The notes beneath the pieces were generated by a model that worked only from the letters and a program-made list of their open reading frames with translations, was not told where the DNA came from and did not search any database. The translations under genes and the position numbers were made by a program. A DNA stretch of 64,000 nt from Bacillota bacterium. Its GTDB lineage: Bacteria; Bacillota_I; Bacilli_A; Izemoplasmatales; Hujiaoplasmataceae. Below, piece after piece: positions 6,643-46,794 of this stretch; position 1 is the first letter of the stretch; each line of letters begins with the position of its first letter. Location of the stretch: assembly GCA_018818595.1 (NCBI GenBank), contig JAHIRM010000026.1, positions 1 to 64,000 on the forward strand, given 5' to 3'.

Positions 6643-9501
6643 ATGAAAAAACACTTTTTTATGTCAATATTGACAATTTGCTTGGTTTTTTTGATGACTG
6701 CTTGTGGGCAATTGGCAGGAAATAGCCCTATCGTTTATGAACCACCCACAGACGTTACCGCCTGGATGGATCTTAATCAAGGTGAAACCATTACTGAGAT
6801 GCATTCTGGAAACATGCACCGTATCTATTTAACTTCAACTGGAAGATTATTGGCTATTGGAAATAACGAATATGGTCAATTTGGAAAATCAACGCCTCAA
6901 TACAAAGATACTTTCATTGACATCACGTCAAATATTGGCCTTGCTGCAGGTGAAGATGTTAAACAACTTGTGATTGGCATTAATGCTGATCACAACTTGT
7001 TACTTACTACCAATAACCGCTTACTTGCCTGGGGTTACAACCATTTTGGTCAAGTGGGAAATCAAACCAATATTCATCAAATGACCCCTTATGATCTCAC
7101 CTCGTCTTTTTCTTTAGGAGTTGGAGAAACCATAGAGTGGATTGCCTCAGGACAGAATCAATCACTAGCAGTTACATCGAATAACCGGATATTTACTTGG
7201 GGAAGAAATGATTATGGTCTTTTGTTAGATGGAACAACGACCAATAAGAATCAACCAACCGAAGTAACAACTTTTCAATCACTTTTGCAAACGGGAGAAA
7301 CCATTGAAAAAATAGTTTATGGTGCAACGCATGCCCATGTTCTTACTTCTTTTGGCAATTTGTATGGATTTGGATTGAGCGGATACTTTGCACTTGGAAA
7401 TGCTCAAGAAGCTTCTGTTTCACTTACTCCTATTCTAATTAATCCAACTCTTGGACTTCAATCAGGGGAAACAATCACCGACGTTATTGGTGGTTGGGTA
7501 AGTGGTATGGTTTTAACTTCAAATAACCGTCTTATTTCTTTTGGAGGTAATCAGTCTGGTCAAGTGGGTTCTGGATCGGATGAATACCGAGTTCAATATC
7601 CAACAGACATCACTTCCTTATTAAATCTTAATACAAATGAAACAATTTCTTCTATTTCCACAAATGGAGAACAATTTCTTTTACTCACTAGTCTTGGTAG
7701 ACTTTTCGCTTGGGGAAGAGGATTTACTAAAATGGATTTTGAAACAGATCTAAATGATGCAAATGTTCCAACGGATATATCCAATCGGCTTGGATTAAAT
7801 GTAGGCGAAGTTGTAACCTTAATCAACGCAGGTTGGAGCCTTCATAGCGATCCTTATTCGATGGTTAAAACTAGTCAAAACCGTATGATTGACTGGACGC
7901 TTATGGTAATCTATGATTATTCATATACCTCAGCCAACGATAAAGTTACGATTACTTCTTATTTAGGGCAAAACCAAGTGCTTTATATTCCAGAAGAAAT
8001 TGATTGGATGCCGGTTGTAGCAATAGGAGACAATGCTTTTAAAAACAATCAAACTCTTTCGACTATAACGATTCCTGAGTCTGTTAAATCCATTGGCAAT
8101 AACGCTTTTGAAAATGCTTCAAATCTTGAAGAAGTAATTCTTGAAAATACTGATACATCTCATATCACTACTCTTGGAACAAATGTTTTTAATAATACTC
8201 CTTCTTATTTAAAACTGCTTGTATTTCCTTCTTGCTTAACTCAATATCAAGGTGCTTCTAATTGGAGTGCTTATGCTTCGAAAATTAGTGGGTATAATTC
8301 CTCTCTTGCGCAGGCGGTCAACCCTCCAGTTCTTTTAACTGGAATGAATCCAGTTTATTGGGATGATGACTTTATTGAGATTGTAAAATATACCAATGTC
8401 CAAACTGGTGCTATCAATCCAAATTGGGATGAAACAAAATGGTATGCATACCTCGATACTTTCTCTTATACAGATACAACGGGAGATAATGGTTTTTCTC
8501 ACTGGGCCAATGCTATAAGTTTAGATGGATCTTATTGGGTTTGGATTCCTCGTTACATTTACCGCGTTTCTCTTGGTTGGAATGAAACCAAAACTGGTTC
8601 AATCGATATCAAATTTACAATTGGAACGAATGATAGTGTTCACAATCTTCCATTACAAACTACTGGTGCAGCTTCTGACTCCAATCATACTTGGACCAGT
8701 CATCCTGCTTTTACATTTGGTCAACAAGAACTAACTGGTTTCTGGGTTGCTAAATTTCAAGCCTCAGAGGTCTCAGGAGAAGTTCAATCATTGCCAGCAG
8801 TAACGCCATTTATGGATGGAGACCTCGACTCTAAGTTTCTTCGAGTAAGACAAATGGAAACGAAAACGTCCTATTATGGTTGGAATTCAACCGAACTCGA
8901 TTCTCATATCTCAAAAAGCAGCGAATGGGGAGCCGTAAGTTATCTTTCACTTTCCGTTTATGGAAGGTATCGAACTTACGCCGCTGCTAACCGAACTCTC
9001 TATCTTGTTCTTCATAATAATGAAAATTGTTTTGCGACGAAGACAGGTGGAAGTGATCAATTAACTGGTTCTTACAGTAGCCCATCTTGGACATATAATG
9101 GATATCAGTCAACCACTGGAAATCCTTATGGTGTTTTCGACATGAGCGCTGGATTCACAGAAATAATGGCAAGCATTTTACTTCCTTCTTCAAGTGCAGA
9201 TAATCCTACCTATGGTTTGTCCATCCTTGCAGGAAACTCTAAATACTATGATACCTTCTTAACAAATCCTACTTTAGGTTCTTTAAGTAAAGGAGACGCC
9301 ACCTATGAAACAAGTGGGGGTCTTGGTGAGAATTTAGCCTGGGGTGGTCAAAGATCAGTTTCGCCAACCATCCAATATCCTTGGTTTACTCGAGGAGGGT
9401 CACACGGACAACTTGGAACTGGAAATTTTAGTTTTAGTGGCTCAAATGGTTCTTTAGATGATAACACTACTTTTAGAACAATATTGGTCCCAACACCTTA
9501 A
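6643..9501 (+). CDS. RCC1/LRR/FGE-like lipoprotein, array copy 1
   Basis: This is a large predicted surface lipoprotein of unknown function. A signal segment ends at the lipobox MTAC, with lipid-modified Cys21. Residues about 45-420 contain roughly seven RCC1-like propeller repeats, recognisable by WGxNxxGQxG-like motifs. Residues about 450-545 form a short BspA-like leucine-rich segment (AFKNNQTLSTITIP). Residues about 560-952 resemble the FGE-sulfatase/C-type-lectin fold: FWVAKFQAS, EWGAVSYLS, YGVFDMSAG and a final RGGS..FRTILVP match the positions of family landmarks. No catalytic function is claimed. Such folds often bind ligands, so adhesion or glycan binding is a reasonable guess. The start follows GAAGGG. 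An inverted repeat GATGT..ACATC sits just upstream of the ribosome-binding site. It is the first of three tandem paralogues. Confidence 0.85.
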   Translation: MKKHFFMSILTICLVFLMTACGQLAGNSPIVYEPPTDVTAWMDLNQGETITEMHSGNMHRIYLTSTGRLLAIGNNEYGQFGKSTPQYKDTFIDITSNIGLAAGEDVKQLVIGINADHNLLLTTNNRLLAWGYNHFGQVGNQTNIHQMTPYDLTSSFSLGVGETIEWIASGQNQSLAVTSNNRIFTWGRNDYGLLLDGTTTNKNQPTEVTTFQSLLQTGETIEKIVYGATHAHVLTSFGNLYGFGLSGYFALGNAQEASVSLTPILINPTLGLQSGETITDVIGGWVSGMVLTSNNRLISFGGNQSGQVGSGSDEYRVQYPTDITSLLNLNTNETISSISTNGEQFLLLTSLGRLFAWGRGFTKMDFETDLNDANVPTDISNRLGLNVGEVVTLINAGWSLHSDPYSMVKTSQNRMIDWTLMVIYDYSYTSANDKVTITSYLGQNQVLYIPEEIDWMPVVAIGDNAFKNNQTLSTITIPESVKSIGNNAFENASNLEEVILENTDTSHITTLGTNVFNNTPSYLKLLVFPSCLTQYQGASNWSAYASKISGYNSSLAQAVNPPVLLTGMNPVYWDDDFIEIVKYTNVQTGAINPNWDETKWYAYLDTFSYTDTTGDNGFSHWANAISLDGSYWVWIPRYIYRVSLGWNETKTGSIDIKFTIGTNDSVHNLPLQTTGAASDSNHTWTSHPAFTFGQQELTGFWVAKFQASEVSGEVQSLPAVTPFMDGDLDSKFLRVRQMETKTSYYGWNSTELDSHISKSSEWGAVSYLSLSVYGRYRTYAAANRTLYLVLHNNENCFATKTGGSDQLTGSYSSPSWTYNGYQSTTGNPYGVFDMSAGFTEIMASILLPSSSADNPTYGLSILAGNSKYYDTFLTNPTLGSLSKGDATYETSGGLGENLAWGGQRSVSPTIQYPWFTRGGSHGQLGTGNFSFSGSNGSLDDNTTFRTILVPTP

Positions 9502-9732
9502 AATAATTATATAAAATAGAAATTTCATTTAATGAAGTATCGTTATTTAAAAATTAATTTACATCTTTATATTGTAAATCATAAAAGAAGTTAGTGTTTT
9601 AAAAAAGAATATTTTGTGAGAGTCTTTTTTTTTACTTGTTATACTGTTAAAATATAGATAATAATATTTTTTTACTTTCTTTTTTTTACTAACCTTTAAA
9701 CAAAGATGTAAGATTTCGGAAGGAAAATTGCA

Positions 9733-12600
9733 ATGAAAAAACACTTTTTTTTGTCAATAATAACGGTTTGTTTGGTTTTTTTAATGTCCGCGTGTAATCA
9801 ATTCGCATTTTGGGTAAGTACCACTCCTATTGTCTATGAACCACCAACCGATGTTACCACCTGGATGGATCTTGATCCAGGTGAAACCATTACCGAGATG
9901 CATTCTGGAAACATGCATCGTATCTATTTAACTTCAACTGGAAGATTTTTAGCTATTGGAAATAATCAATATGGTCAATTTGGAAAATCTACTCCTCAAT
10001 ACAAAGATACTTTCATTGACATCACGTCAAATATTCATCTTGTTTCAGGAGAAGGCGTTAAACAGTTGGTGATAGGCCTAAGTGCTGATTTTAACTTACT
10101 ACTCACTACTAATAATCGCTTGCTTGCATGGGGTTATAACTTTTATGGCCAAGTGGGTAATCAAACCAATACCGACCAAAAAACTCCATATGATCTCACC
10201 TCGTCTTTTTCTTTAGGAGTTGGAGAAACCATTGAGTGGATTGCGGCTGGAGAAAGTCAATCATTAGCTATTACATCGAATAATCGAATATTTACTTGGG
10301 GAAGAAATGAATACGGTCTTTTGTTAGATGGAACAACAACCAATAAAAATCAACCGACCGAAGTAACAACTTTTCAATCACTTTTGCAAACGGGAGAAAC
10401 CATTGAAAAAGTGGTCTTTGGTTCATATCATGTTCATATTCTTACCTCGTTTGGTAACCTATATGGCATCGGAATGAAAAGCTACTTCGCTCTTGGAAAC
10501 GCTGAAGAAGGTTCTGAAACACTTACTCCTATTCTAATTAATCCTACTCTTGGGCTTCAATCGGGAGAAACCATCTCTGATATCATAAATGGTTGGTTAA
10601 ATGGAATGATTTTAACTTCGAATAACCGACTCATTTCCTTTGGTGGGAATGAATTTGGACAAGCCGGGGCAGGCTCAGATGAATACTGTGTTCGCTATCC
10701 AACAGACATCACTTCCTTATTAAATCTTAGTACAAATGAAACAATATCTTCTATTTCCACAAATGGAGATCATTTTCTCCTTCTCACAAGTCTTGGAAGG
10801 CTTTTTGCTTGGGGAAGAGGATTTACTAAAATGGATTTTGAAGCTGATCTTAATGTTTTAAACTTTCCAACCGATATAACAAGTAAGCTAGGCTTAAATA
10901 CTGGCGAGGTTGTAACCTTAATCAACGCGGGTTGGAGCTCTAATAGCGACCCTTATTCAATGGCTAAAACTAGTCAAAATCGTATGATTGACTGGACATT
11001 TATGGCAATCTATGATTATACTTATACCTCAGTTAACGATGAAGTAACGATTACTTCTTATACCGGTAACAACCAAGTACTTTATGTTCCAAATGAAATA
11101 GATTGGATGCCGGTTGTAGCAATAGGAGACAATGCTTTTAAAAACAATCAAACTCTTTCGACTATTACGATTCCTGCTTCTGTTCAATCCATTGGCAATA
11201 ATGCCTTTGAAAATGCTACGAATTTAGAAGAAATAATTCTTGAAAATAAAGATGCAACTAATCTTACTACTCTTGGGACAAATGTTTTTAATAATACTCC
11301 TTCTTATTTGAAGCTTCTTGTATTTCCAACACTCTTAACTCAATATCAAAGCGCCACTAACTGGAGTGCTTATGCTTCAAAAATCAGTGGGTATAATTCC
11401 TCTCTTGCTCAGGCGGTCAACCCTCCCATTCTTTTAACTGGAATGAATCCGGTCTATTGGGATAATGACCATAATGAAATTGTAAAATATACCAATGTCC
11501 AAACCGGTGCTATTAATCCAAATTGGAATGAAACGAAATGGTATGCGTACATTGATACCTTTTCTTATGCTGATACAACAGGAGAAAACGGTCCTTCTCA
11601 CTGGGCCAACGCTATAAGTTTAGATGGATCTTATTGGGTTTGGATTCCTCGTTACATCTACCGCGTTTCTCTTGGTTGGAACGAATCCAAAACTGGTTCA
11701 ATCGATATCAAATTTACAGTTGGCACAAATGATAATATTCACAATCTTCCATTGCAAACTACCGGTACTGCATCTGATTCCAACCATACTTGGACCAGTC
11801 ATCCTGCTTTTACGTTTGGTCAACAAGAACTAACTGGTTTCTGGGTTGCAAAATTTCAAGCTTCTGACGTATCAGGTGAAGTTCAATCAGTTCCAGCTGT
11901 AGCACCATTTGTGACAGGAAATCTTGATGCTAAGTTTCTTCGAGTAAGACAAATGGAAACGAAAACTTCTTATTATGGCTGGAATTCAGCCGAACTCGAT
12001 TCTCATCTTTCAAAAAGCAGCGAATGGGGAGCTGTAAGTTATCTTTCATTTTCCGTTTATGGTAGACATCGAACCTATGCAACTGCAAATAGAATACTCT
12101 ATGATGTCCTTTATAATAACCAATATTGTCTTGCTCCAATGACGGGTGGAAGTGATCTTTTAATCAGTACTTCCGGTAGCGCTTCTTGGATAAACAATGT
12201 ACAGATGTCAAGCACAGGAAATCCTTATGGTGTTTACGACATGAGCGCTGGATTCACAGAAATAATGGCAAGTGTATTACTTCCTTCTTCAAGTGCAGAT
12301 AATCCTACCTATGGTTTATCTATCCTTGCCGGAAATTCCAAATACTTTGAAACCTACTTAACAACTAGTACTTTAGGTTCTTTAAGTAAAGGAGACGCTA
12401 CCTATGAAACAAGTGGGGATTTTGGTGATAATTTAGCCTGGGGAAGTCAAAATTCAATTTCGCCAACCACTCTAAATCCATGGTTTATTCGTGGAGGATC
12501 ACACGGGCAACTTGGTACTGGAATTTTCAGTTATAGTGGTACAAGTGGCGCTTCAACTAATTATGTTACTTTTAGAACAATACTGGTCCCAACGCCTTAA
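9733..12600 (+). CDS. RCC1/LRR/FGE-like lipoprotein, array copy 2
   Basis: This is the second tandem paralogue, with the same order of parts: lipobox MSAC (Cys21), RCC1-like propeller repeats, one short BspA-like LRR segment, and a C-terminal FGE/C-type-lectin-like domain ending in RGGS..FRTILVPTP. It differs from copy 1 mainly in scattered propeller residues and in the C-terminal domain. There, the segment after NRILYDVLYNN and the last 30 residues before the end are strongly diverged, as expected for exposed loops. Its own leader carries most of the conserved block, but the GATGT..ACATC hairpin seen in copies 1 and 3 is broken here. A terminator follows at 12616-12648, so this copy may be transcribed separately from copy 3. 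The ligand is unknown. Confidence 0.85.
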   Translation: MKKHFFLSIITVCLVFLMSACNQFAFWVSTTPIVYEPPTDVTTWMDLDPGETITEMHSGNMHRIYLTSTGRFLAIGNNQYGQFGKSTPQYKDTFIDITSNIHLVSGEGVKQLVIGLSADFNLLLTTNNRLLAWGYNFYGQVGNQTNTDQKTPYDLTSSFSLGVGETIEWIAAGESQSLAITSNNRIFTWGRNEYGLLLDGTTTNKNQPTEVTTFQSLLQTGETIEKVVFGSYHVHILTSFGNLYGIGMKSYFALGNAEEGSETLTPILINPTLGLQSGETISDIINGWLNGMILTSNNRLISFGGNEFGQAGAGSDEYCVRYPTDITSLLNLSTNETISSISTNGDHFLLLTSLGRLFAWGRGFTKMDFEADLNVLNFPTDITSKLGLNTGEVVTLINAGWSSNSDPYSMAKTSQNRMIDWTFMAIYDYTYTSVNDEVTITSYTGNNQVLYVPNEIDWMPVVAIGDNAFKNNQTLSTITIPASVQSIGNNAFENATNLEEIILENKDATNLTTLGTNVFNNTPSYLKLLVFPTLLTQYQSATNWSAYASKISGYNSSLAQAVNPPILLTGMNPVYWDNDHNEIVKYTNVQTGAINPNWNETKWYAYIDTFSYADTTGENGPSHWANAISLDGSYWVWIPRYIYRVSLGWNESKTGSIDIKFTVGTNDNIHNLPLQTTGTASDSNHTWTSHPAFTFGQQELTGFWVAKFQASDVSGEVQSVPAVAPFVTGNLDAKFLRVRQMETKTSYYGWNSAELDSHLSKSSEWGAVSYLSFSVYGRHRTYATANRILYDVLYNNQYCLAPMTGGSDLLISTSGSASWINNVQMSSTGNPYGVYDMSAGFTEIMASVLLPSSSADNPTYGLSILAGNSKYFETYLTTSTLGSLSKGDATYETSGDFGDNLAWGSQNSISPTTLNPWFIRGGSHGQLGTGIFSYSGTSGASTNYVTFRTILVPTP

Positions 12601-12615
12601 CAAAACTATAAAAAT

Positions 12616-12648
12616 AAACAATCGCGAAGCTAACGATTGTTTTTTTTA
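12616..12648 (+). terminator. Terminator after array copy 2
   Basis: AACAATCG and CGATTGTT arms are followed by a run of T residues. Confidence 0.7.
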
Positions 12649-12835
12649 TATCTTGATTATTCAAAAAGACATGATCTATCATTTTTTTTGAAATTTGATG
12701 TTTTAAATAAGAATATTCCGTGAGAGCCTTCTCTTTTATTTGTGATAATGCTAATATAAAGATAATAATATTTTCTTACTTTCTTTTTTTATTATCTCTT
12801 ATTCATAGATGTAAAACATCAGAAGGGAAATCGCT

Positions 12836-15703
12836 ATGGTAAAACACTTTTTTATGTCAGTAATAACGATTTGTTTGGCATTTTTAATGACATCTTGCAG
12901 TCAATTTGCATTGTGGGGAGGAAATGATACTACTATTTATGAAACACCCACCGATGTTACATCTTGGATGGATCTTGATCCAGGTGAGACCATTACAGAG
13001 ATGCATTCAGGGAACTTACACCGCATCTATTTGACTTCAACTGGAAGATTTCTCGCTATCGGGTCTAATTTAACGGGTCAATTTGGAAAATCAACGCCTA
13101 AATACAAAGATACTTTCATTGACATCACTTCAAATATCGGTCTTGCTTCAGGAGAAGGCGTTAAACAATTTGTGATTGGCATTCGTGCTGAGCACAACTT
13201 ACTACTCACCACTAATAACCGCTTACTTTCATGGGGTTACAACGATTTTGGCCAAGTGGGTAATCAAACCAATACCGATCAAATAACTCCTTATGATCTC
13301 ACTTCGTCTTTTTCTTTAGGAATCGGTGAAACCATTGAGTGGATCGCGGCTGGAGAAAGTCAATCATTAGCTATTACATCGAATAACCGGATATTTACTT
13401 GGGGAAATAATAATTATGGTCTTCTATTAGATGGAACAACGACTAATAAGAATCAACCAACCGAAGTAACAACCTTTCAATCGCTTTTACAAACGGGAGA
13501 AACCATTGTTAAAGTGACTTTTGGTGGGTTTCACGTTCATATTCTTACTTCTTTTGGTAACCTTTACGGAATTGGAAGTGGTTACAACTTTGCTCTTGGT
13601 AACGCAGATGAAATGCAAAATTTCCTTACTCCCATTCTAATTAATCCTACTCTTGGCCTTCAATCTGGAGAGACAGTTTCAGATGTCATGGCCGGTTGGA
13701 AAAGTGCAATGGTTATAACGTCAAATAACCGTCTTATCTCTTTTGGTGGCAATGAATTTGGACAAGCTGGCGTTGGTTCAGTCGAACTCCGTATTCAATA
13801 CCCAACAGATATCACTTCCTCATTAAATCTAAGTACAAATGAAACAGTGTCCTCTATTTCCACGATGGGTGACCGTTTTCTATTACTCACAAGTCTTGGT
13901 AGACTTTTCGCTTGGGGAAGAGGATTTACCCTAATGGATTTTGAAACCGACCTGAATTATATAAATGTTCCAACGGAAATATCATATCGACTTGGCTTAA
14001 ATGCTGGAGAAGTTGTAACCTTAATTGATGATGGGTTGAGTACAGACAATGAACTCTTTTTGATGGTTAAAACCAGTCAAAATCGTATGATTAATTGGCA
14101 ACTTTTGATGACCTATGAGTATACTTATACTATAGCCAACGATGAAGTTACCATTACTTCTTATACCGGAAGCAGTCAAGTACTTTATGTGCCAGATGAA
14201 ATAGATTGGATGCCGGTTGTAGCAATAGGAGACAATGCTTTTAAAAACAATCAAACTCTTTCGACTATAACGATTCCTGAATCGATTAAATCCATAGGTA
14301 ATAATGCCTTTGAAAACGCTTCAAATCTTGAAGAAGTAATTCTTGAAAATACTGATACATCTAACATAACAACTCTTGGAACAAATGCTTTTAACAACAC
14401 TCTTTCTTATTTGAAGCTTCTTGTATTTCCTACGTGTTTAACTTTGTATCAAGGATCTACAAATTGGAGTGCTTATGCTTCAAAAATCAGTGGGTATAAT
14501 TCCTCTCTTGCGCAGGCGGTCAACCCTCCCATTCTTTTAACTGGAATGAACCCAGTCTATTGGGATGATGATTATAATGAAATTGTAAAATATACCAATG
14601 TCCAAACCGGTACTATCAATCCAAATTGGGATGAAACAAAATGGTATGCATACCTTGATACCTTTCCAAACAGAATTCATCCAGGAAATATTGGTTCTTC
14701 CCGCTGGGCCAATGCTATAAGTTCAGATGGATCTTATTGGGTTTGGATTCCTCGTTACATCTACCGAGTTTCTCTTGGTTGGAACGAATCCAAAACAGGA
14801 TCAATCGATATCAAATTTACAGTTGGCACAAATGATAATATTCACAATCTTCCATTACAAACTACCGGTACTGCATCTGATTCCAATCATACTTGGACCA
14901 GTCATCCTGCGTTTACATTTGGCCAACAAGCACTAACTGGTTTTTGGGTTGCAAAATTTCAAGCCTCTGAAATATTGGGTGAAGTTCAATCAGTACCAGC
15001 TGTAACACCATTTATGACAGGAAATCTTGACTCTAAGTTTCTTCGAGCAAGGCAAATGGAAACAAAAGCCTCTTATTATGGTTGGAATTCAACCGAACTC
15101 GATTCTCATCTTTCAAAAAGCAGCGAATGGGGAGCCATAAGTTATCTTTCACTTTCTGTTTATGGCAGATACCGAACTTACGCAAGTACAAATGCAACTC
15201 TTTATTCTACTATTTATAACAGCCAAAATGTTCTTGCACCAAAAACAGGTGGAAGTGATGTTTTACTAGGTTCTTACACTGACCCATCTTGGATATATAA
15301 TGGACATCAGTCAACTACAGGAAACGCCTATGGTGTTTACGATATGAACGGTGGGTACAATGAAATATTAGCAAGTGTTTTACTTCCTTCTTCTAACGCA
15401 AGTAATCCAGCCTATGGTTTATCCATCCTTGCCGGAAATTCTAAATACTATGATACCTTCTTAACAACTAGTGCTTTAGGTTCTTTAAGTAAAGGAGACG
15501 CCACCTATGAAACAAGTGGGGGCTTTGGTGAAAATTTTGCATGGGGCGGTCAAAGTTCCATCTCTCCAACTACTCAAAATCCATGGTTCATTCGAGGAGG
15601 ATCGCTTGGACAACTTGGTCCTGGAAATTTCTGTTTTAGTGGCTCAAATGGCACTGCAAATGATTTCACTACTTTTAGAATGGTATTGGTTCCAACACCT
15701 TAA
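12836..15703 (+). CDS. RCC1/LRR/FGE-like lipoprotein, array copy 3
   Basis: This is the third tandem paralogue. It has a lipobox MTSC with Cys21, RCC1-like repeats, the short BspA-like LRR segment and the FGE/C-type-lectin-like C-terminal domain ending FRMVLVPTP. It is somewhat more diverged than copies 1 and 2. For example, a different insertion occurs around residue 615 (FPNRIHPGNIG), and YGVYDMNGGYNEI replaces YGVYDMSAGFTEI. The copy-specific changes again cluster in the C-terminal domain. The leader keeps the GATGT..ACATC inverted repeat next to the ribosome-binding site. A strong terminator follows. Function is unknown; surface binding is inferred only from domain types. Confidence 0.85.
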   Translation: MVKHFFMSVITICLAFLMTSCSQFALWGGNDTTIYETPTDVTSWMDLDPGETITEMHSGNLHRIYLTSTGRFLAIGSNLTGQFGKSTPKYKDTFIDITSNIGLASGEGVKQFVIGIRAEHNLLLTTNNRLLSWGYNDFGQVGNQTNTDQITPYDLTSSFSLGIGETIEWIAAGESQSLAITSNNRIFTWGNNNYGLLLDGTTTNKNQPTEVTTFQSLLQTGETIVKVTFGGFHVHILTSFGNLYGIGSGYNFALGNADEMQNFLTPILINPTLGLQSGETVSDVMAGWKSAMVITSNNRLISFGGNEFGQAGVGSVELRIQYPTDITSSLNLSTNETVSSISTMGDRFLLLTSLGRLFAWGRGFTLMDFETDLNYINVPTEISYRLGLNAGEVVTLIDDGLSTDNELFLMVKTSQNRMINWQLLMTYEYTYTIANDEVTITSYTGSSQVLYVPDEIDWMPVVAIGDNAFKNNQTLSTITIPESIKSIGNNAFENASNLEEVILENTDTSNITTLGTNAFNNTLSYLKLLVFPTCLTLYQGSTNWSAYASKISGYNSSLAQAVNPPILLTGMNPVYWDDDYNEIVKYTNVQTGTINPNWDETKWYAYLDTFPNRIHPGNIGSSRWANAISSDGSYWVWIPRYIYRVSLGWNESKTGSIDIKFTVGTNDNIHNLPLQTTGTASDSNHTWTSHPAFTFGQQALTGFWVAKFQASEILGEVQSVPAVTPFMTGNLDSKFLRARQMETKASYYGWNSTELDSHLSKSSEWGAISYLSLSVYGRYRTYASTNATLYSTIYNSQNVLAPKTGGSDVLLGSYTDPSWIYNGHQSTTGNAYGVYDMNGGYNEILASVLLPSSNASNPAYGLSILAGNSKYYDTFLTTSALGSLSKGDATYETSGGFGENFAWGGQSSISPTTQNPWFIRGGSLGQLGPGNFCFSGSNGTANDFTTFRMVLVPTP

Positions 15704-15852: not shown

Positions 15853-16050
15853 TTATAAACTTACGATGTTTGATGCTTGAGGACCTTTTTGTCCTTCAGT
15901 TACATCGAAACTAACAGCTTCGCCTTCTTGTAAAGCTTTGTATCCATCTTTTTGAATTTGAGAAAAATGTGCAAATATATCTTTTCCATCTTCAGCAGTG
16001 ATGAATCCAAACCCTTTTTCAGCGTTGAACCATTTTACTTTACCAGTCAT
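15853..16050 (-). CDS. csp: Cold-shock protein (CspA family)
   Basis: This is a single-stranded nucleic-acid-binding OB-fold protein that acts as an RNA chaperone in the cytoplasm. The 65 residues match the family length. RNP1 is KGFGFI (residues 12-17) and RNP2 is IFAHF (25-29); RNP2 more often reads VFVHF, a mild variant. The start has AAGGAGGTAAC just upstream. The leader, about 88 bases from a TATAAT at 16144-16149, contains GTTACCTC in the mRNA. That sequence is perfectly complementary to GAGGTAAC at the ribosome-binding site, so translation may be controlled by RNA structure (inference). It is monocistronic and converges with the lipoprotein array. Confidence 0.95.
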
Positions 16051-16282: not shown

Positions 16283-17074
16283 TTATGGTTGCATTGCTCC
16301 AAATAATACAAGCCAAGCAAGAAGTGATTTCGCAACCAAACTTAACACAATGTAAGCTCGTTCTCCATAAAGATAGTTTTTCCATTTACCAATTTTTTTG
16401 TATTGTAAAACCATATTCACCGGAAAAGAGTTAAATGCAACAAAATACGTTCCAACAATGGCCCATACAAACCAAGGAACTTGACCAAAATTAGCATTAC
16501 CAAACATATAAAGTAAGATAACAATCCATGGAGCGATTCCGGCAATGGCGCCCCAAATGAATGGTCCCCAATTGATTTTTTCGTTTTGTGCTCTTTTCGC
16601 ATTTAATTGTTCCATCACAAGTCCAAATAAATTCATACTAGCGTTCACTATGAAAATTAGGATTAGAGACGCTATATCATAAATTCCAAATAAAGTCGCA
16701 ATTAGTACAATCATTATCGATGAACTTAGCGCATATTCAAACCATCTGAATTGGTTGATTCCTTTTTGCAAATCACTATTATATTTTTTATTGAGTTTAT
16801 TTGGAATCGAAATTAGTGCATGTGCCACTGCGCTTAGTAATAAAAACATTGCCACAAGTATTCCAAACGGTAATTGAAATAGTTCTTTACTTGCAAGTTC
16901 TAATGATTGCGTAATTGTATTAAATTGTAAAAAGTTTTGTGTAATAATTGGTTGAAATTCTCCAATCTTTTGGATGACAGTTGAAGCTAAAAACAACATT
17001 AATATTCCTTGTATTAGATGAAGTGCACCCATTATCATATTAAATCGACGTAGTTTTTGAAAAGTTAAATCCAT
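16283..17074 (-). CDS. Heliorhodopsin
   Basis: This is a seven-transmembrane retinal-binding photoreceptor of the heliorhodopsin family, which is distinct from type 1 rhodopsins and has an inverted topology. Family landmarks are clear: RRFN..MGALHLIQG (His19), His85 in VAHAL, the counterion Glu113 in RWFEYALSSSIM, NLFGLVMEQ, IAPWIV, NSFPVNMVLQYKKIGKW, and the Schiff-base Lys249 in LSLVAKSLLAW. The length of 263 residues is typical. The start is supported by AGGAGG and by a TGATATAAT extended -10. Retinal-forming genes are not present in the window, so the chromophore must come from elsewhere in the genome or from the environment. It lies between a cold-shock gene and an LRR lipoprotein gene on the same strand, without close coupling. 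Light sensing is the usual proposal for the family; the true role is not settled. Confidence 0.96.
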   Translation of the reverse strand: MDLTFQKLRRFNMIMGALHLIQGILMLFLASTVIQKIGEFQPIITQNFLQFNTITQSLELASKELFQLPFGILVAMFLLLSAVAHALISIPNKLNKKYNSDLQKGINQFRWFEYALSSSIMIVLIATLFGIYDIASLILIFIVNASMNLFGLVMEQLNAKRAQNEKINWGPFIWGAIAGIAPWIVILLYMFGNANFGQVPWFVWAIVGTYFVAFNSFPVNMVLQYKKIGKWKNYLYGERAYIVLSLVAKSLLAWLVLFGAMQP

Positions 17075-17111
17075 TTTATTTCCTCCTAAAAAAGTGTTTT
17101 ATATATATAAT

Positions 17112-17140
17112 ATTATATCATACACATGAAAAGTTGAAAA
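17112..17140 (-). promoter_or_regulatory. Extended -10 promoter of the heliorhodopsin gene
   Basis: On the minus strand, TGA-TATAAT (17120-17112) forms an extended -10. A weak TTTTCA -35 lies 17 bases further upstream. The distance to the start codon is about 38 bases. Confidence 0.6.
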
Positions 17141-17233
17141 ATGAAATGCTTAAATTTGCTCTCGATATAAAAGGCGGTATCATAAAATATCATATTAGCT
17201 ATGTATTTAATTCTTATGTCATTAAATCTTTCT

Positions 17234-19816
17234 TTATGGTGTTTCTTGAATGTAAGTTTCGCAACCTTCAAAAGCATTTAGATATGCTTGAAGAGTCGTT
17301 GCTGGGACCATAATTTTAAGAGTAGATGGCACATCCCAAAATGCTAACCAGGATTCTAAAACAGGAGGAGTTACTCCAAGCATATTGACTGTTTCAAGAT
17401 TAGCGCACTCTCCAAAGGTGTACCTTCCAATAAATTCTACGTTTTCTGGAATGGTAATAGTTGTAAGAGCCTCACAATCGTAAAAAGCAAATTCTTGAAT
17501 AAATATTACACTTTGAGGAATGGTGATTTCGATTAAATTAGGTTGTCCATAAAGGGCTGACCCTGCAATTCCTATTGTTCCTGGAAGGATCAATATTGAA
17601 GTAGCTAAAGGTATTTCTCCCTTATAAATTAAAAATACTTTTCCAGCATATATCATTCCACTTGGTTGATTATTATACCATGCCGTACTACCAAAAGCAT
17701 ATGTTCCAATGTCTTTTAAACTATCTGGAAATTGGATTGATGCAATATTTGTGCAATTTGAAAAAGCTAGAAATCCAATGTGAAGTAAGCCGTCCGGAAA
17801 GACAATCGACGTAAGTCCTGTACATTCATCAAAAACATATTGTCCAATGGATTCCAATCCAATTGGAAAAGTAATATTGGTTAGATTTTTACAATTATAA
17901 AAGGAATCATCTTCAATGTATTTTACCCCAGATGGAAGCGAATAACTAACATCTGCTTTTTTTGCAGGATAAAGAACTAAATTTTCCATATTTTTGGTGA
18001 AAAGCACTCCATTAAGGGATGCATAATTTGGATTTAAAGAATCAACTGAGATTGTTTCAAGTGTGCGTAATCCGTAAAATGCTCCTTTTCCTAAAAAGGT
18101 AACTGAAGCAGGTATCGTGATATTAACGAGTCTTGTACATTCAGAAAAAGCATACTCATTAATTGTTGTTACATTTCCACCGAAACTGATGGATGTTAGA
18201 TTAACACAATGAGAAAAAGCTCGTTCGCCAAATTCTACTAGATTGCTACTTAATGTCAATGAACTAAGACTTGCACAATTAGAAAAAGCATATTCTCCGA
18301 TGGTATAAATGTTATCTGGAATAACAATGGATTGAAGGCTTGTACAATCTTTGAAAAGATTATCTGAGATAGAAGAGATATTTAGGGGCAAATTAATGGA
18401 TACAAGTTTGGTACAGTTTGAAAACGCTCCATCGCCTATGTAATTTATGCTATCTGGTAAAACTACTGTCAAAAGTTCGCTAATCGAGTAAAAAGCTCCA
18501 GATCCTATTTCTTCCAATCCAGCAGGAAATGTAATAGAAGTTATGGCACTACAGATATTAAAAGCTCCATTTCCAATTCGAAGGAGTCCAGATGAAAAGG
18601 TAATCTGGCCAAGATTAAAATCTTGAGAAAAAGCATTCTCACCAATTTCAATGATTGAATTTGGCATGATAATTTCCACTAAATTATATTGATCATTAAA
18701 TGAATATGGCGCAATGCTTTTTGTTCCTTGATTAAAAGTAAGCGAAGTAGAACTTGGCATAACTCCTTTGTAGGTATATGCTACTTTGCCAATATATACT
18801 ACTCCATCATTTTGACTATCAAGCCATGGAGAACTATATCCAAGTAAGTTACTTCCAACTTTTTCGATAGAGTCGGGAAAAACAATTGTCAAAAGATTTT
18901 CACAATAAGCAAAAACACTTGTTCCTAATTCAGTAACTTGATCGGAAATCGTAATCGATAAAAGTGCGGAACAGCCTAAAAATAATCCATCACTTAGCTT
19001 AGTGAGTCCGGTTCCAAACGTAATGTTTGAGAGTGCTTCGCAAGCACTAAAGGCTCCTTCTCCTAAAGAAGTTAGACTATTTGGAAAACTAATACTTGTA
19101 ATACTATGCGTATTCGAAAATGCGTAATTTTCAATAGTCGTTAAGGTTGTAGGAAAAATTAAATTAGGTAAATTAATACACATATAAAAAGCGTAACTGC
19201 CAATTATTTCAAGGTGTGAAGGTAGAGTAATATGAATCAAATTTCTACAAAAATAGAAGGCTTGATGCCCAATGGATACAATGGATTCAGGAAGAGAAAT
19301 ACCTGTCAAAGTTTGGCTATTAAAAAATGCACTATCTCCTATTCCAGATACTACCTTACCTAAGTAATACATGGGTATTGTTAATTCTACTTCTGTTCCT
19401 ACATAGTATGCGACTTCATAAGTATCGTCATCTTTTAATGTATAATTCAGTCCAACTGTTCCTAGCAATTCCTCCCAAAGAGGAGTTACGGTAAGATTGG
19501 ATGTAACATTAGAAAATCCTGAGTCCCATCCTAAAAAGGAATACCCTGCCTTTTCAATCGTTGGAGCCAAAGCAGTGGCGCCTGGTAACACATTTTGAAT
19601 AAGAGTTCCAGAAACAAGAGTTCCTCCGTCAAGCGAAAAAGTTACTGTAAAGGTTGTCTGTGTCGAAACAGTAGTTGAAGATGATATTGCAGAAGTAGTC
19701 GTAGTCGTTTGAGAAGTGGTAGTGGTGGTAGTAGTGGTTGTTCCTCCCAAAGCACATCCAGCAAGAATTGTTACAAATAGAAGTATGACTAATCCAAAAA
19801 ATAATTTTGATTTCAT
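17234..19816 (-). CDS. BspA-like leucine-rich-repeat lipoprotein
   Basis: This is a surface lipoprotein of 860 residues, probably an adhesin or binding protein. The lipobox LAGC gives Cys21. A Thr/Ser-rich spacer (residues about 25-55) is followed by one InlB-like repeat (GYSFLGWD) and then by some 25-30 tandem LRR_5 units of about 23 residues. These carry the typical pattern of IGxxAFxxCxxLxxIxIPxSV. Two places are interrupted by a WLDSQNDGVVYIGKVAYTYKG-like insertion typical of BspA relatives. The end (TPPVLESWLAFWDVPSTLKI) also matches the family. A promoter is proposed 260 bases upstream, leaving a long structured leader. The same LRR type occurs as a short module in the RCC1 lipoprotein array. 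Confidence 0.92.
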   Translation of the reverse strand: MKSKLFFGLVILLFVTILAGCALGGTTTTTTTTTSQTTTTTSAISSSTTVSTQTTFTVTFSLDGGTLVSGTLIQNVLPGATALAPTIEKAGYSFLGWDSGFSNVTSNLTVTPLWEELLGTVGLNYTLKDDDTYEVAYYVGTEVELTIPMYYLGKVVSGIGDSAFFNSQTLTGISLPESIVSIGHQAFYFCRNLIHITLPSHLEIIGSYAFYMCINLPNLIFPTTLTTIENYAFSNTHSITSISFPNSLTSLGEGAFSACEALSNITFGTGLTKLSDGLFLGCSALLSITISDQVTELGTSVFAYCENLLTIVFPDSIEKVGSNLLGYSSPWLDSQNDGVVYIGKVAYTYKGVMPSSTSLTFNQGTKSIAPYSFNDQYNLVEIIMPNSIIEIGENAFSQDFNLGQITFSSGLLRIGNGAFNICSAITSITFPAGLEEIGSGAFYSISELLTVVLPDSINYIGDGAFSNCTKLVSINLPLNISSISDNLFKDCTSLQSIVIPDNIYTIGEYAFSNCASLSSLTLSSNLVEFGERAFSHCVNLTSISFGGNVTTINEYAFSECTRLVNITIPASVTFLGKGAFYGLRTLETISVDSLNPNYASLNGVLFTKNMENLVLYPAKKADVSYSLPSGVKYIEDDSFYNCKNLTNITFPIGLESIGQYVFDECTGLTSIVFPDGLLHIGFLAFSNCTNIASIQFPDSLKDIGTYAFGSTAWYNNQPSGMIYAGKVFLIYKGEIPLATSILILPGTIGIAGSALYGQPNLIEITIPQSVIFIQEFAFYDCEALTTITIPENVEFIGRYTFGECANLETVNMLGVTPPVLESWLAFWDVPSTLKIMVPATTLQAYLNAFEGCETYIQETP

Positions 19817-42567: not shown

Positions 42568-43378
42568 GCTTAACTTTTTCCTCATAGATATATTTATGAA
42601 CCGGTGGCATAGAATTATAAATCCTTGTAATATCTAGGTATCCTAATCCCATTTTATCAAATCCCGAGAACATGCCTTTAACAAGAACCGTTTCCATGGT
42701 CATACTAAAACCTAATATTGCAATATCCTGGCCCTTTTTAATTGGTAGTAACATTTCTCTAAAAGGTTGGTTTCTAAAAACAATTCGTGAGCTTGATGCA
42801 GATTGCGCGGATATGACAGGTACAATTTTTGGATATCCGTCTTCATCAATATAGGATATGAAAGTTAAAGTATCCATCTTAGATAAAAAATGGTATGTCC
42901 AATCATTCATCGCTTTTTTTAAACGGTCTCCTTTGTATTTACTCTTAAATAGCTTTGAGAGAATCGCATTATAAATGACTTTTGTCATTGGAAGAACAAG
43001 TTTATCCGAAATTTTCACAAGATCAAAGTAGTAAACCGTATTGATTCCAAAATAGGAATTATACCGAAATAGCGGCTGATTATTGTAATTAATATAATCT
43101 TCTCCTTCTTTACTCTCATGATTGTAATTCATTTTCCCAATCCAAAATTCTTTGTTTGTATTCATGATTAAAAAACTTGATTTTGGACGTTTTTGAAAAA
43201 ACTCTTTACTATATCCTTCAATAAATTTGCCAAGAATCATTTGAGAAGTTCCTTTTCCCATGATAGAAGATAACACAGTTATGTGAGGAGAGTTGTTTTC
43301 ATCTATGGTTGACACAAGTCCTATTTTAATTGTTTTTTCAAATTCTTTATTCAATTGTTCTGTTAATGCATTATTCAT
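42560..43378 (-). CDS. FMN-binding split-barrel (pyridoxamine-oxidase-like) protein
   Basis: This 272-residue protein contains a split-barrel domain of the pyridoxamine 5'-phosphate oxidase-like superfamily (KIGLVSTIDENNSPHITVLSSIMG, and again TLTFISYIDEDGYPKIVPVISAQS). The motif occurs twice, which suggests two half-barrels or a duplicated domain. Such proteins bind FMN, F420 or heme and often act as small-molecule reductases. Its place between the glycyl radical activase and the regulator suggests a step on the same substrate, for example a redox conversion (inference). The start has GGAGG six bases upstream. Both ends overlap neighbours by the same eight bases, ATGAATAA. Confidence 0.7.
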   Translation of the reverse strand: MNNALTEQLNKEFEKTIKIGLVSTIDENNSPHITVLSSIMGKGTSQMILGKFIEGYSKEFFQKRPKSSFLIMNTNKEFWIGKMNYNHESKEGEDYINYNNQPLFRYNSYFGINTVYYFDLVKISDKLVLPMTKVIYNAILSKLFKSKYKGDRLKKAMNDWTYHFLSKMDTLTFISYIDEDGYPKIVPVISAQSASSSRIVFRNQPFREMLLPIKKGQDIAILGFSMTMETVLVKGMFSGFDKMGLGYLDITRIYNSMPPVHKYIYEEKVKHE

Positions 43379-44306
43379 ATTGTACCTCCAATTGATAAGT
43401 TCCTGTGGAAAAGATATTTTTACTTTTTGCAGGTAAGACAGATTTTGCCAATGTTTCTAACTCGTTCATTCTTTGCTTGGTCATTAGCGGTTCATTTTGA
43501 AAATCCCACTTTAGATCAAGCCTCGAATATTTGTCTTTACAGAGGTTGTTAAAGGCACATAATTCCCATCTATCAAAATCAATGTTATTGTCTTTTAAGA
43601 ATGTTGCAATTTCTAAAATATTCTCATCAAAATCAGTTGCTTTTGGAATGATTGGGGTACGAATCCAAATTTTTGTCTTCTCTTGATTTAATTTAATAAG
43701 ATTTTCTTTGATTAATTGATTGCTAGTGTTACAAAAAAAATTGTGCTTTTCTTCAGAAAAAAATTTAATATCATATAGAAAAATATCTGTATAAGGAATA
43801 ATTTCTTTGATATTTTCGTAATCTGCAAATCCAGAAGTATCAATTGCAATATTTAAGTTATCCCGCTTCAAACGTTTTAGAAGTAATGCAACTTCCTTTG
43901 TTTGCAAAAGCACTTCTCCACCTGATAAAGTAATTCCACCACCATTACTAAAATATGCTTTGTCTTTGATTAACTCTTCGTAAAGACTTAAGACTGAGAT
44001 ATCTTCTCCAATAGCTTTCAAAGCAGAGGTTGGACAGACATCAACACATTTCATGCATAGATTGCATAAAGCTCTATTTATAATTATCTTTTTCTCTTTA
44101 TAGTGAAGAGCATTTTGTTTACAGACCTTGATACAATCCAAGCAAAAGATGCAACTAGATTTTATCCACTCTTTATTAAAGGAAAAAGGAATTGATTCTG
44201 GATTGTGACACCAAGTACAGTGAAGTGGACAACCCTTAAAAAATACGGTTGTTCTTAATCCTGGTCCATCTTCAGTGGACATTCTTTGAATATTCAAAAT
44301 ACGCAT
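43371..44306 (-). CDS. Glycyl radical enzyme activating protein (radical SAM)
   Basis: This enzyme uses S-adenosylmethionine and a [4Fe-4S] cluster to install the glycyl radical on its partner. The radical SAM motif is Cys26-x3-Cys30-x2-Cys33 (GCPLHCTWCHNPES). Two further ferredoxin-like clusters are indicated by Cys52, 55, 58, 62 and Cys81, 84, 87, 91, as in activases of dehydratase and decarboxylase type glycyl radical enzymes rather than in PflA itself. The GGGITLSGGEVL motif, which binds SAM, is present. I chose the ATG at 44306 (MRILNIQR), right after the stop of the enzyme gene, because the family begins at this point. Confidence 0.94.
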   Translation of the reverse strand: MRILNIQRMSTEDGPGLRTTVFFKGCPLHCTWCHNPESIPFSFNKEWIKSSCIFCLDCIKVCKQNALHYKEKKIIINRALCNLCMKCVDVCPTSALKAIGEDISVLSLYEELIKDKAYFSNGGGITLSGGEVLLQTKEVALLLKRLKRDNLNIAIDTSGFADYENIKEIIPYTDIFLYDIKFFSEEKHNFFCNTSNQLIKENLIKLNQEKTKIWIRTPIIPKATDFDENILEIATFLKDNNIDFDRWELCAFNNLCKDKYSRLDLKWDFQNEPLMTKQRMNELETLAKSVLPAKSKNIFSTGTYQLEVQYE

Positions 44307-44307
44307 A

Positions 44308-46794
44308 TTAGTACTCTTGGTGTGATTCTCTGGCGATAATCTCATTTTGCAATTCTCTTCCTACAGTAACAAAGTATGCATTATAGCCTGTAATTCTAAC
44401 TAACAAATTCTTGTAATTTTCAGGGTGTTTTTGAGCATCTTTTAACATTTCAGGATCTAATACATTAATTTGTAATGCCGTTCCCCCATTTTCGATGTAA
44501 CCTCTTAAAAATGCTTTAAATTTATCTAAATGGTTTATATTCTTAAGTAATGAAGAATTGAAAGTAATAGTATGACTTGCACCATTTGGAAGGCAGTTTA
44601 CGTATCCCTCAAAATCACTTGATTCTGATTTGCCTCCTAATATGTTTCCAACAGAATTGGAATTGGCCGTTGGTCCTTTGGTGTCTGCTCCGTTTGATGG
44701 ACAAATGGCATTAGAGAAAAATTCTCCATGCTTTCTTCCATCTGGTGATGCAGGAAGAATAAATCCTGCCCCTACCCAATAATTCCAAGATAACATTCCT
44801 GGTCTGAATTGGCGAGCGGTTGACTTAGTTTTGTATTTCCATGTTTCTTCTGCAAAGAAATCCATATAATCTGAAGCAATTTCATCGGCTCGAGATTCAT
44901 CACGTCCATATTTTGGAGCTTTGTTTTTTGCGATTTGTCTTAGTTTTTCGAAACCTTCCCAGTTGTGGATTAAAGCTTCTTTTATGGTTTCTAATGAACA
45001 AATTTTCTTATCAAATACTAAATACTTCACAGCCAATATTGAATCCACTGTCGTTGCAAATGTTACACCTTCGATTGTAACAAATTTTAATTCAGATCCT
45101 CCTTCAGTAATATCTTTATGAGAAGGGATTGTTCCATCCACTAATGTAGATAAATAAAGAGTATTCCCATATTCTGAACGAATGGATTCGGATACTTCAT
45201 ATAAATCAACGCTTTCCTTTATAATGTATTTTGTTTGTTCTTTAACCGCTTGATAAAAGTCTTCAAACTTTTTCATTTCAGATAATCCCAAGGTTTTAGG
45301 ACCAAGTTGTTTCAGCTTTAAATACTTCATAGAAGATTCATTATATTTTGGAGTTAAGTCTTTTCCTTGATTGAATGCAAGTTCTACTGCTTTATAGAGA
45401 TAGAGATTATTATCAACGGTTCCTGACCTATCATTTCCACACATTGTGTTTTCAAGGCATCCAACAGATGCGTATTCAAATACGTTGTCCTTATTAATAT
45501 ATTCTTCTACATGTGCTTTTTTTGCTTCTCTAAGCATTCCTGCCATGGATCTTTCATCAAAATTCAATAAGAAGGGTGCTCCTTGAGAGGAAGCAATCAT
45601 TTCTACAACTCTATCCAGTAGTTTTTCTGGAGTGTTTTTATGAAGTCTGACATTCGGTTTCGGTTCTAGGATTGGGGACATATCATCAATAACATCTAAC
45701 AGTATGTAGGTTAAATCATTTGTTTGATCATTTCCTGAAGCATCTCTTCCTGAGAGATTAAAGAGTTGACCAAATCCTGCAGTTATACCATTATATCCGA
45801 CTCTGATTTGTGCATCATAAGCAGTATTACAGTGAAACCAAAAACAACCAAGAATTTCTTTGGCTTCAAATTCTGACATTCCATCTTCTATGGATTTTTT
45901 ATAGAATGGATATAGATATTGGTCTAATCTTCCAAAAGAAACTCCTGGGCCGGGATAATTTTCATCGCTCATGACTAACATATGAGTTATCCACAATGAT
46001 TGGACTGCTTGATAGAAGTTCTCTGATGGCTTCCAAGGAACAACTTCTAGATTTTTTGACATCAATAACAATTCATTTTTTCTTGTTTTAGATTTCTCTT
46101 TGGTAGCTAATTCTAAACATTTATCTTTGTATTTTTCGGCTAATTCTTTCGGCAAAGTTGAAGCTATCATCATAGCTCTTAATTGTTCTCCAGCCTTAGA
46201 ATCTTTTTCTTGAGGGCTTAACCGATTGTATTCATCGGTTATCTCTTGATAAACTGATTCAAAACCTGATGTTAGGATTTTTTTATAGTTTGGAATTAAA
46301 TGTCCACTCGTTGCTCCTACATTTCCAAAACCGCGATAGTAATACTCAAGAAAGGTTTTTCTTGAACCTTTTTTACCATAAACCAATTTGCTTCTCTTTT
46401 TTGCTTGTTTTTCGTTTAAACAGTGAGAAGACATTAGATTAAAATTCGCTCCGCATAATAAATCATGTTTCAGTATAACAATTGGCATATTATTGACCAT
46501 GATCTCTTTTAAGAAAGTTGCTCTTCTTTCTTTCAAAGATAAATTCCAAAAGTCTTGTGGTAATTCAATTGGTATTGCACTTTGAAGTGTTGATGAAGTG
46601 AACGTTTGATAAAAAGATATCGTTTCAGGAACAATATAATAGGTCATCTCATCAAATAAATAATCCCATGGTTTTCCGGTAGTGAAATTATGGTACTCAT
46701 TATTCCAATCTCTATTTACTCCTTCAAAATAGTAGTCTCTTAACCACTGAACTCTTTTTGAAAGATTTTTAGGTTCCTTTAACTTGCTTTCCAT
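44308..46794 (-). CDS. Glycyl radical enzyme, substrate unassigned
   Basis: This is an oxygen-sensitive radical enzyme of the pyruvate formate-lyase superfamily, 828 residues. The thiyl Cys446 lies in VGCLENTMCGND, and the adjacent acid Glu448 follows the GCxE pattern of C-C/C-O/C-N-cleaving members (dehydratases, lyases, decarboxylases), not the CC pair of pyruvate formate-lyase. The radical Gly803 is in VRITGYNAYF. No His follows closely after GCLE, and no small decarboxylase subunit gene is nearby. These facts argue against a typical hydroxyphenylacetate decarboxylase but do not identify the substrate. No microcompartment genes are seen. The start is supported by AAGGAGG seven bases upstream. 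A near-perfect promoter with a GntR operator precedes it. It is the first gene of the operon with activase, FMN-barrel protein and FCD regulator. Confidence 0.92.
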   Translation of the reverse strand: MESKLKEPKNLSKRVQWLRDYYFEGVNRDWNNEYHNFTTGKPWDYLFDEMTYYIVPETISFYQTFTSSTLQSAIPIELPQDFWNLSLKERRATFLKEIMVNNMPIVILKHDLLCGANFNLMSSHCLNEKQAKKRSKLVYGKKGSRKTFLEYYYRGFGNVGATSGHLIPNYKKILTSGFESVYQEITDEYNRLSPQEKDSKAGEQLRAMMIASTLPKELAEKYKDKCLELATKEKSKTRKNELLLMSKNLEVVPWKPSENFYQAVQSLWITHMLVMSDENYPGPGVSFGRLDQYLYPFYKKSIEDGMSEFEAKEILGCFWFHCNTAYDAQIRVGYNGITAGFGQLFNLSGRDASGNDQTNDLTYILLDVIDDMSPILEPKPNVRLHKNTPEKLLDRVVEMIASSQGAPFLLNFDERSMAGMLREAKKAHVEEYINKDNVFEYASVGCLENTMCGNDRSGTVDNNLYLYKAVELAFNQGKDLTPKYNESSMKYLKLKQLGPKTLGLSEMKKFEDFYQAVKEQTKYIIKESVDLYEVSESIRSEYGNTLYLSTLVDGTIPSHKDITEGGSELKFVTIEGVTFATTVDSILAVKYLVFDKKICSLETIKEALIHNWEGFEKLRQIAKNKAPKYGRDESRADEIASDYMDFFAEETWKYKTKSTARQFRPGMLSWNYWVGAGFILPASPDGRKHGEFFSNAICPSNGADTKGPTANSNSVGNILGGKSESSDFEGYVNCLPNGASHTITFNSSLLKNINHLDKFKAFLRGYIENGGTALQINVLDPEMLKDAQKHPENYKNLLVRITGYNAYFVTVGRELQNEIIARESHQEY

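Follow-up and report, generated by a model that had tools for sequence, protein, structure and literature searches.

The stretch of Bacillota DNA analysed here (64,000 nucleotides; hereafter, the window) encodes a bona fide, full-length heliorhodopsin (HeR). The protein is a typical representative of a known family; its setting is instructive about HeR function, which is unsettled. The best reading, which we hold with moderate confidence, is a photosensor that scavenges retinal and has no need of a photolyase. What goes past a sequence-only reading of the same DNA is that HeR is common in the order, that relatives pair HeR with photolyase, and that a direct repeat is conserved above the HeR promoter.

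The gene lies on the minus strand (16283..17074), starts with ATG, and encodes 263 aa with H19, H85, the counterion E113, and the Schiff-base lysine K249, exactly at the positions given by the sequence-only reading. Its product matches PF18761 (Heliorhodopsin) over its full length with 330.3 bits (E 8e-99; cut-off 26.7), the sole match to that profile in the genome, and scores 303.3 bits against the NCBIfam equivalog NF038020 ("heliorhodopsin HeR"), threefold over the cut-off of 100. The best solved relative is TaHeR (6is6; phmmer E 7e-60), and the phmmer alignment sets E113 opposite the residue altered in 7clj, the E108D structure of TaHeR. K249 sits in helix 7 within an SLVAKS motif, where S245LVAK249 supplies the SxxxK motif, and the Glu counterion is in helix 3. 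In an alignment of 117 HeRs, H85, E113, and K249 are invariant, as is H19 in the 115 proteins with that column filled. The AlphaFold model (mean pLDDT 91.8) has seven long helices and, in the A-B loop, the antiparallel beta hairpin typical of HeRs (strands 43-52 and 57-67). Foldseek superposes the model on 6is6 with a TM of 0.90 (E 1e-17) and on 48C12 with a TM of about 0.85; rhodopsins other than these appear at E > 0.002 only. TaHeR (6is6, 7u55) thus shares the fold, the Schiff-base lysine, and the counterion with the window protein, but differs in sequence (about 46% identity) and in its archaeal host (Thermoplasmatales). Because the profile matches, key residues, TaHeR similarity, and model superposition agree, the identity is settled, and the earlier assignment is borne out. 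K249 would bind retinal with E113 as its counterion, and the protein is predicted to adopt an inverted topology with a cytoplasmic N-terminus, with which its basic N-terminus (KLRR) is consistent.

The presence of HeR in this host is unremarkable, since the gene is common among relatives: of 120 genomes, counting that of the window, 62 have a match above the cut-off, and so do 24 of the 34 in the window's family. The surprise implied by the sequence-only reading was overstated; monoderms, anaerobes, and hosts without retinal synthesis have all been described as carriers of HeRs (PMC8612252, PMC9385722, PMC9296517). In the HeR tree that this reading had proposed, the window protein falls with G019 (support 95/86) and then with G002 (92/92), near Acholeplasmataceae HeRs with a divergent photolyase; support is weak on several branches around this group. 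A recent foreign origin of the gene is unsupported: its GC and GC3 are the same as in the other genes of the window, and the nearest relatives in the trees are two genomes of its own family. Four records labelled Anaerolineaceae or Brevefilum (Chloroflexota; L016, L034, L039, L004) carry HeRs about 78-81% identical to the window's, one of them on a 1.8-Mb contig, which suggests either inter-phylum transfer or mislabelled bins. A 10.5-kb plasmid of Lactococcus petauri (NZ_CP141705.1) carries a HeR 59% identical to the window's and is a possible vehicle for HeR transfer. One genome of the same order (G048; L164, L167) has three HeR genes, and some of these form long branches. A cultured Izemoplasma is wall-less and strictly anaerobic (PMC8397711), and the host bacterium, apparently a member of Izemoplasmatales, is probably wall-less and anaerobic as well; a glycyl radical enzyme and its activase (window 43371-46794), the enzyme scoring under every NCBIfam cut-off, agrees with anaerobic life.

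HeR lies between a BspA-type LRR lipoprotein gene upstream (17234..19816), a neighbour with no known functional tie to it, and a gene for a 65-aa cold-shock protein, csp, downstream (15853..16050). The sequence-only reading had the position right; we add that all three are on the minus strand in the order LRR lipoprotein, HeR, csp, and that HeR and csp are possibly co-transcribed, since no terminator-like site was found between them. A conserved HeR-csp operon is rejected, with a csp homologue near HeR in 0 other compared loci. No Rfam match marks an RNA element around HeR. The earlier description of the genome as low in GC and rich in surface lipoproteins fits what the window shows: HeR has a GC of 32.4% and the whole window one of 32.6%, and a crude motif scan places lipobox-like signals in seven window ORFs. 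Positions 6643-15703 encode three paralogous lipoproteins in tandem, about 950 aa long and bearing RCC1-like repeats plus a short LRR_5 stretch.

The window holds no photolyase and no retinal-synthesis gene linked to HeR, as had been noted; among relatives, the picture is different for photolyase. A photolyase occurs in 52 of 62 HeR-positive vs 10 of 58 HeR-negative genomes, an association that kinship inflates and that is not significant within the window's family alone (p 0.13). G009, G017, and several Acholeplasmataceae records have a photolyase immediately upstream of HeR and divergent from it; by sequence, this photolyase groups with the Trichococcus enzyme, which has been reported as class II (PMC9769723). 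Divergent pairs in Acholeplasmataceae and Izemoplasmatales (L003, L005, L008, L011, L134, L140) have HeRs close to the window's and share its extended -10 element, but their photolyase starts about 10-180 bp from HeR on the opposite strand and is missing in the window's own genome. Other family members carry photolyase <5 kb from HeR, together with DUF2177, DUF1295, and DegV/DAK2 genes; DUF2177 and photolyase are published HeR neighbours (PMC11109279). The HeR of Trichococcus flocculiformis (TfHeR) is a related Bacilli HeR, and the window protein shares 78% identity with the homologue from T. pasteurii; in Trichococcus, a class-II photolyase belongs to the HeR operon, whereas none was found in the window's genome.

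These relatives bring in the first rival explanation: the window HeR is a photolyase helper as in T. flocculiformis, and the photolyase is merely missing from the draft genome. TfHeR binds and boosts its class-II photolyase (PMC9769723), and both the co-occurrence and the many relatives with photolyase adjacent to HeR or within 5 kb speak for such a role. Of the residues reported as photolyase contacts in TfHeR, K227 stands opposite a lysine in the window HeR, and the site of R162, His in T. pasteurii, is unsafely aligned. Against the rival, neither a Pfam profile (positive controls worked) nor an alignment of photolyases from eleven relatives yielded a match in the 1.87-Mb draft; at 95.2% completeness, an unassembled photolyase or Blh is possible. 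Within the family, six further genomes have HeR but no photolyase match, and neither the window nor two other stretches of the genome hold a remnant, so a photolyase pseudogene is rejected for the stretches examined. DUF2177, DegV/DAK2, and DUF1295 stand in a row on another contig of the genome (L172, G000 contig 36, 8273-11195), with no photolyase alongside; several relatives hold members of this triad beside photolyase and HeR. We consider a helper with a missing photolyase unlikely. The likeliest history, judged from the tree and gene order, is that photolyase was lost in this lineage while HeR was kept. Speaking against our reading are the lack of a remnant, the weak branch support mentioned above, and G019, the nearest relative, whose HeR likewise stands apart from photolyase while the genome matches photolyase elsewhere.

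Retinal supply poses a parallel question. The sequence-only reading had called for a genome-wide search for retinal genes, and this was run for the main ones: neither phytoene synthase (SQS_PSY profile) nor an RPE65-type oxygenase matched in the genome, with working positive controls for both, and no Blh/BCD match was found with a BCD profile that never exceeded its cut-off in any genome, controls included. None of the 34 genomes in the window's family, among them 24 with HeR, has phytoene/squalene synthase, which does occur in another family of the order (25 genomes). Because retinal-synthesis genes were not found, outside supply is the simplest inference: the cell would not make retinal and probably scavenges it from its surroundings. 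An external supply was inferred earlier for TaHeR, whose host is reported to lack retinal synthesis, and for others; a fenestration in HeR has been proposed as the entry for exogenous retinal, and HeRs are known in hosts without retinal synthesis (PMC9385722, PMC9296517). The same missing genes could point to a relic, or to a HeR that works without retinal, as an apo-protein or a decaying gene. The intact frame, the conserved promoter, and the invariant lysine and counterion argue against this, as do amino-acid changes far fewer than silent ones relative to the nearest relative (pN 0.07 vs pS 0.63, a ratio only indicative because dS is near saturation). We regard a relic or retinal-free HeR as quite improbable.

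Under the retinal-scavenging reading, apo-HeR would be loaded at K249 with traces of retinal from the surroundings. Once loaded, the protein would serve as a light sensor, not as an ion pump, and would change how active a partner in the cytoplasm or the membrane is. Since photolyase was apparently lost while HeR was kept, HeR here would serve a target other than photolyase. Regulatory roles with partner proteins have been reported for other HeRs (PMC9529153, PMC9769723, PMC11109279); for the window HeR, the sensory mode and the non-photolyase partner are our inference. Ion transport gated by light, of the kind known from V2HeR3 of a giant virus, is very improbable: light-activated proton transport has been reported for a viral HeR (PMC9448325), but that report covers viral HeRs, ion pumping by HeRs was undemonstrated as of 2021 (PMC8612252), and the window HeR groups in the trees with HeRs from Bacilli and Clostridia.

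The region upstream of HeR, all on the minus strand, offers a view of its control. An AGGAGG ribosome-binding site (17082..17087) lies 7 bases before the ATG, with a similar site in relatives. The extended -10 promoter named by the sequence-only reading is present (TGATATAAT, 17112..17120), and seven genomes retain it within a stretch that otherwise shows little conservation. It is preceded, with a spacer of 17, by a weak -35-like hexamer, TTTTCA (4/6; 17135..17140). Beyond this lies a direct repeat, GAGCA-AATTT-AAGCA (17147..17161), a candidate regulator-binding site with the pattern RAGCA-N5-RAGCA and a 10-base period; the pattern has 1 match in the window vs 0.32 expected. It recurs above HeR in G019, G017, and G009, which makes four genomes with the window's own, and the distance from repeat to extended -10, read off the sequences, is 28-29 bp in all four. 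The loci that carry it upstream of HeR besides the window are L142, L140, and L134, the last two being divergent pairs that share the repeat with the window. G002 has a half-site only, and no repeat stands upstream of the window genome's own DUF2177-DegV/DAK2-DUF1295 triad. With a background of 0.004 per upstream region, chance recurrence above HeR appears unlikely, on a significance that is post hoc because the pattern was spotted by eye and then tested on the same sequences.

The position of the repeat beside a weak -35 suggests a candidate activator site through which HeR would be controlled. In G017 and G009, the repeat sits between HeR and photolyase, and it may thus be a candidate operator common to HeR and, in these two genomes, photolyase. 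Tentatively, and with somewhat less than even confidence, we propose that HeR and photolyase of these wall-less bacteria form one light/stress regulon via RAGCA-N5-RAGCA. Here, HeR would have outlived photolyase under the same control, so that its conserved function would depend neither on photolyase nor on retinal made by the cell itself.

An intact HeR without a detectable photolyase or retinal-synthesis gene offers a test case, supplied by nature, for the photolyase-helper model. A lineage that keeps HeR without a findable retinal-synthesis gene points to retinal scavenging, and the conserved promoter and direct repeat provide a concrete handle on what turns HeR on.
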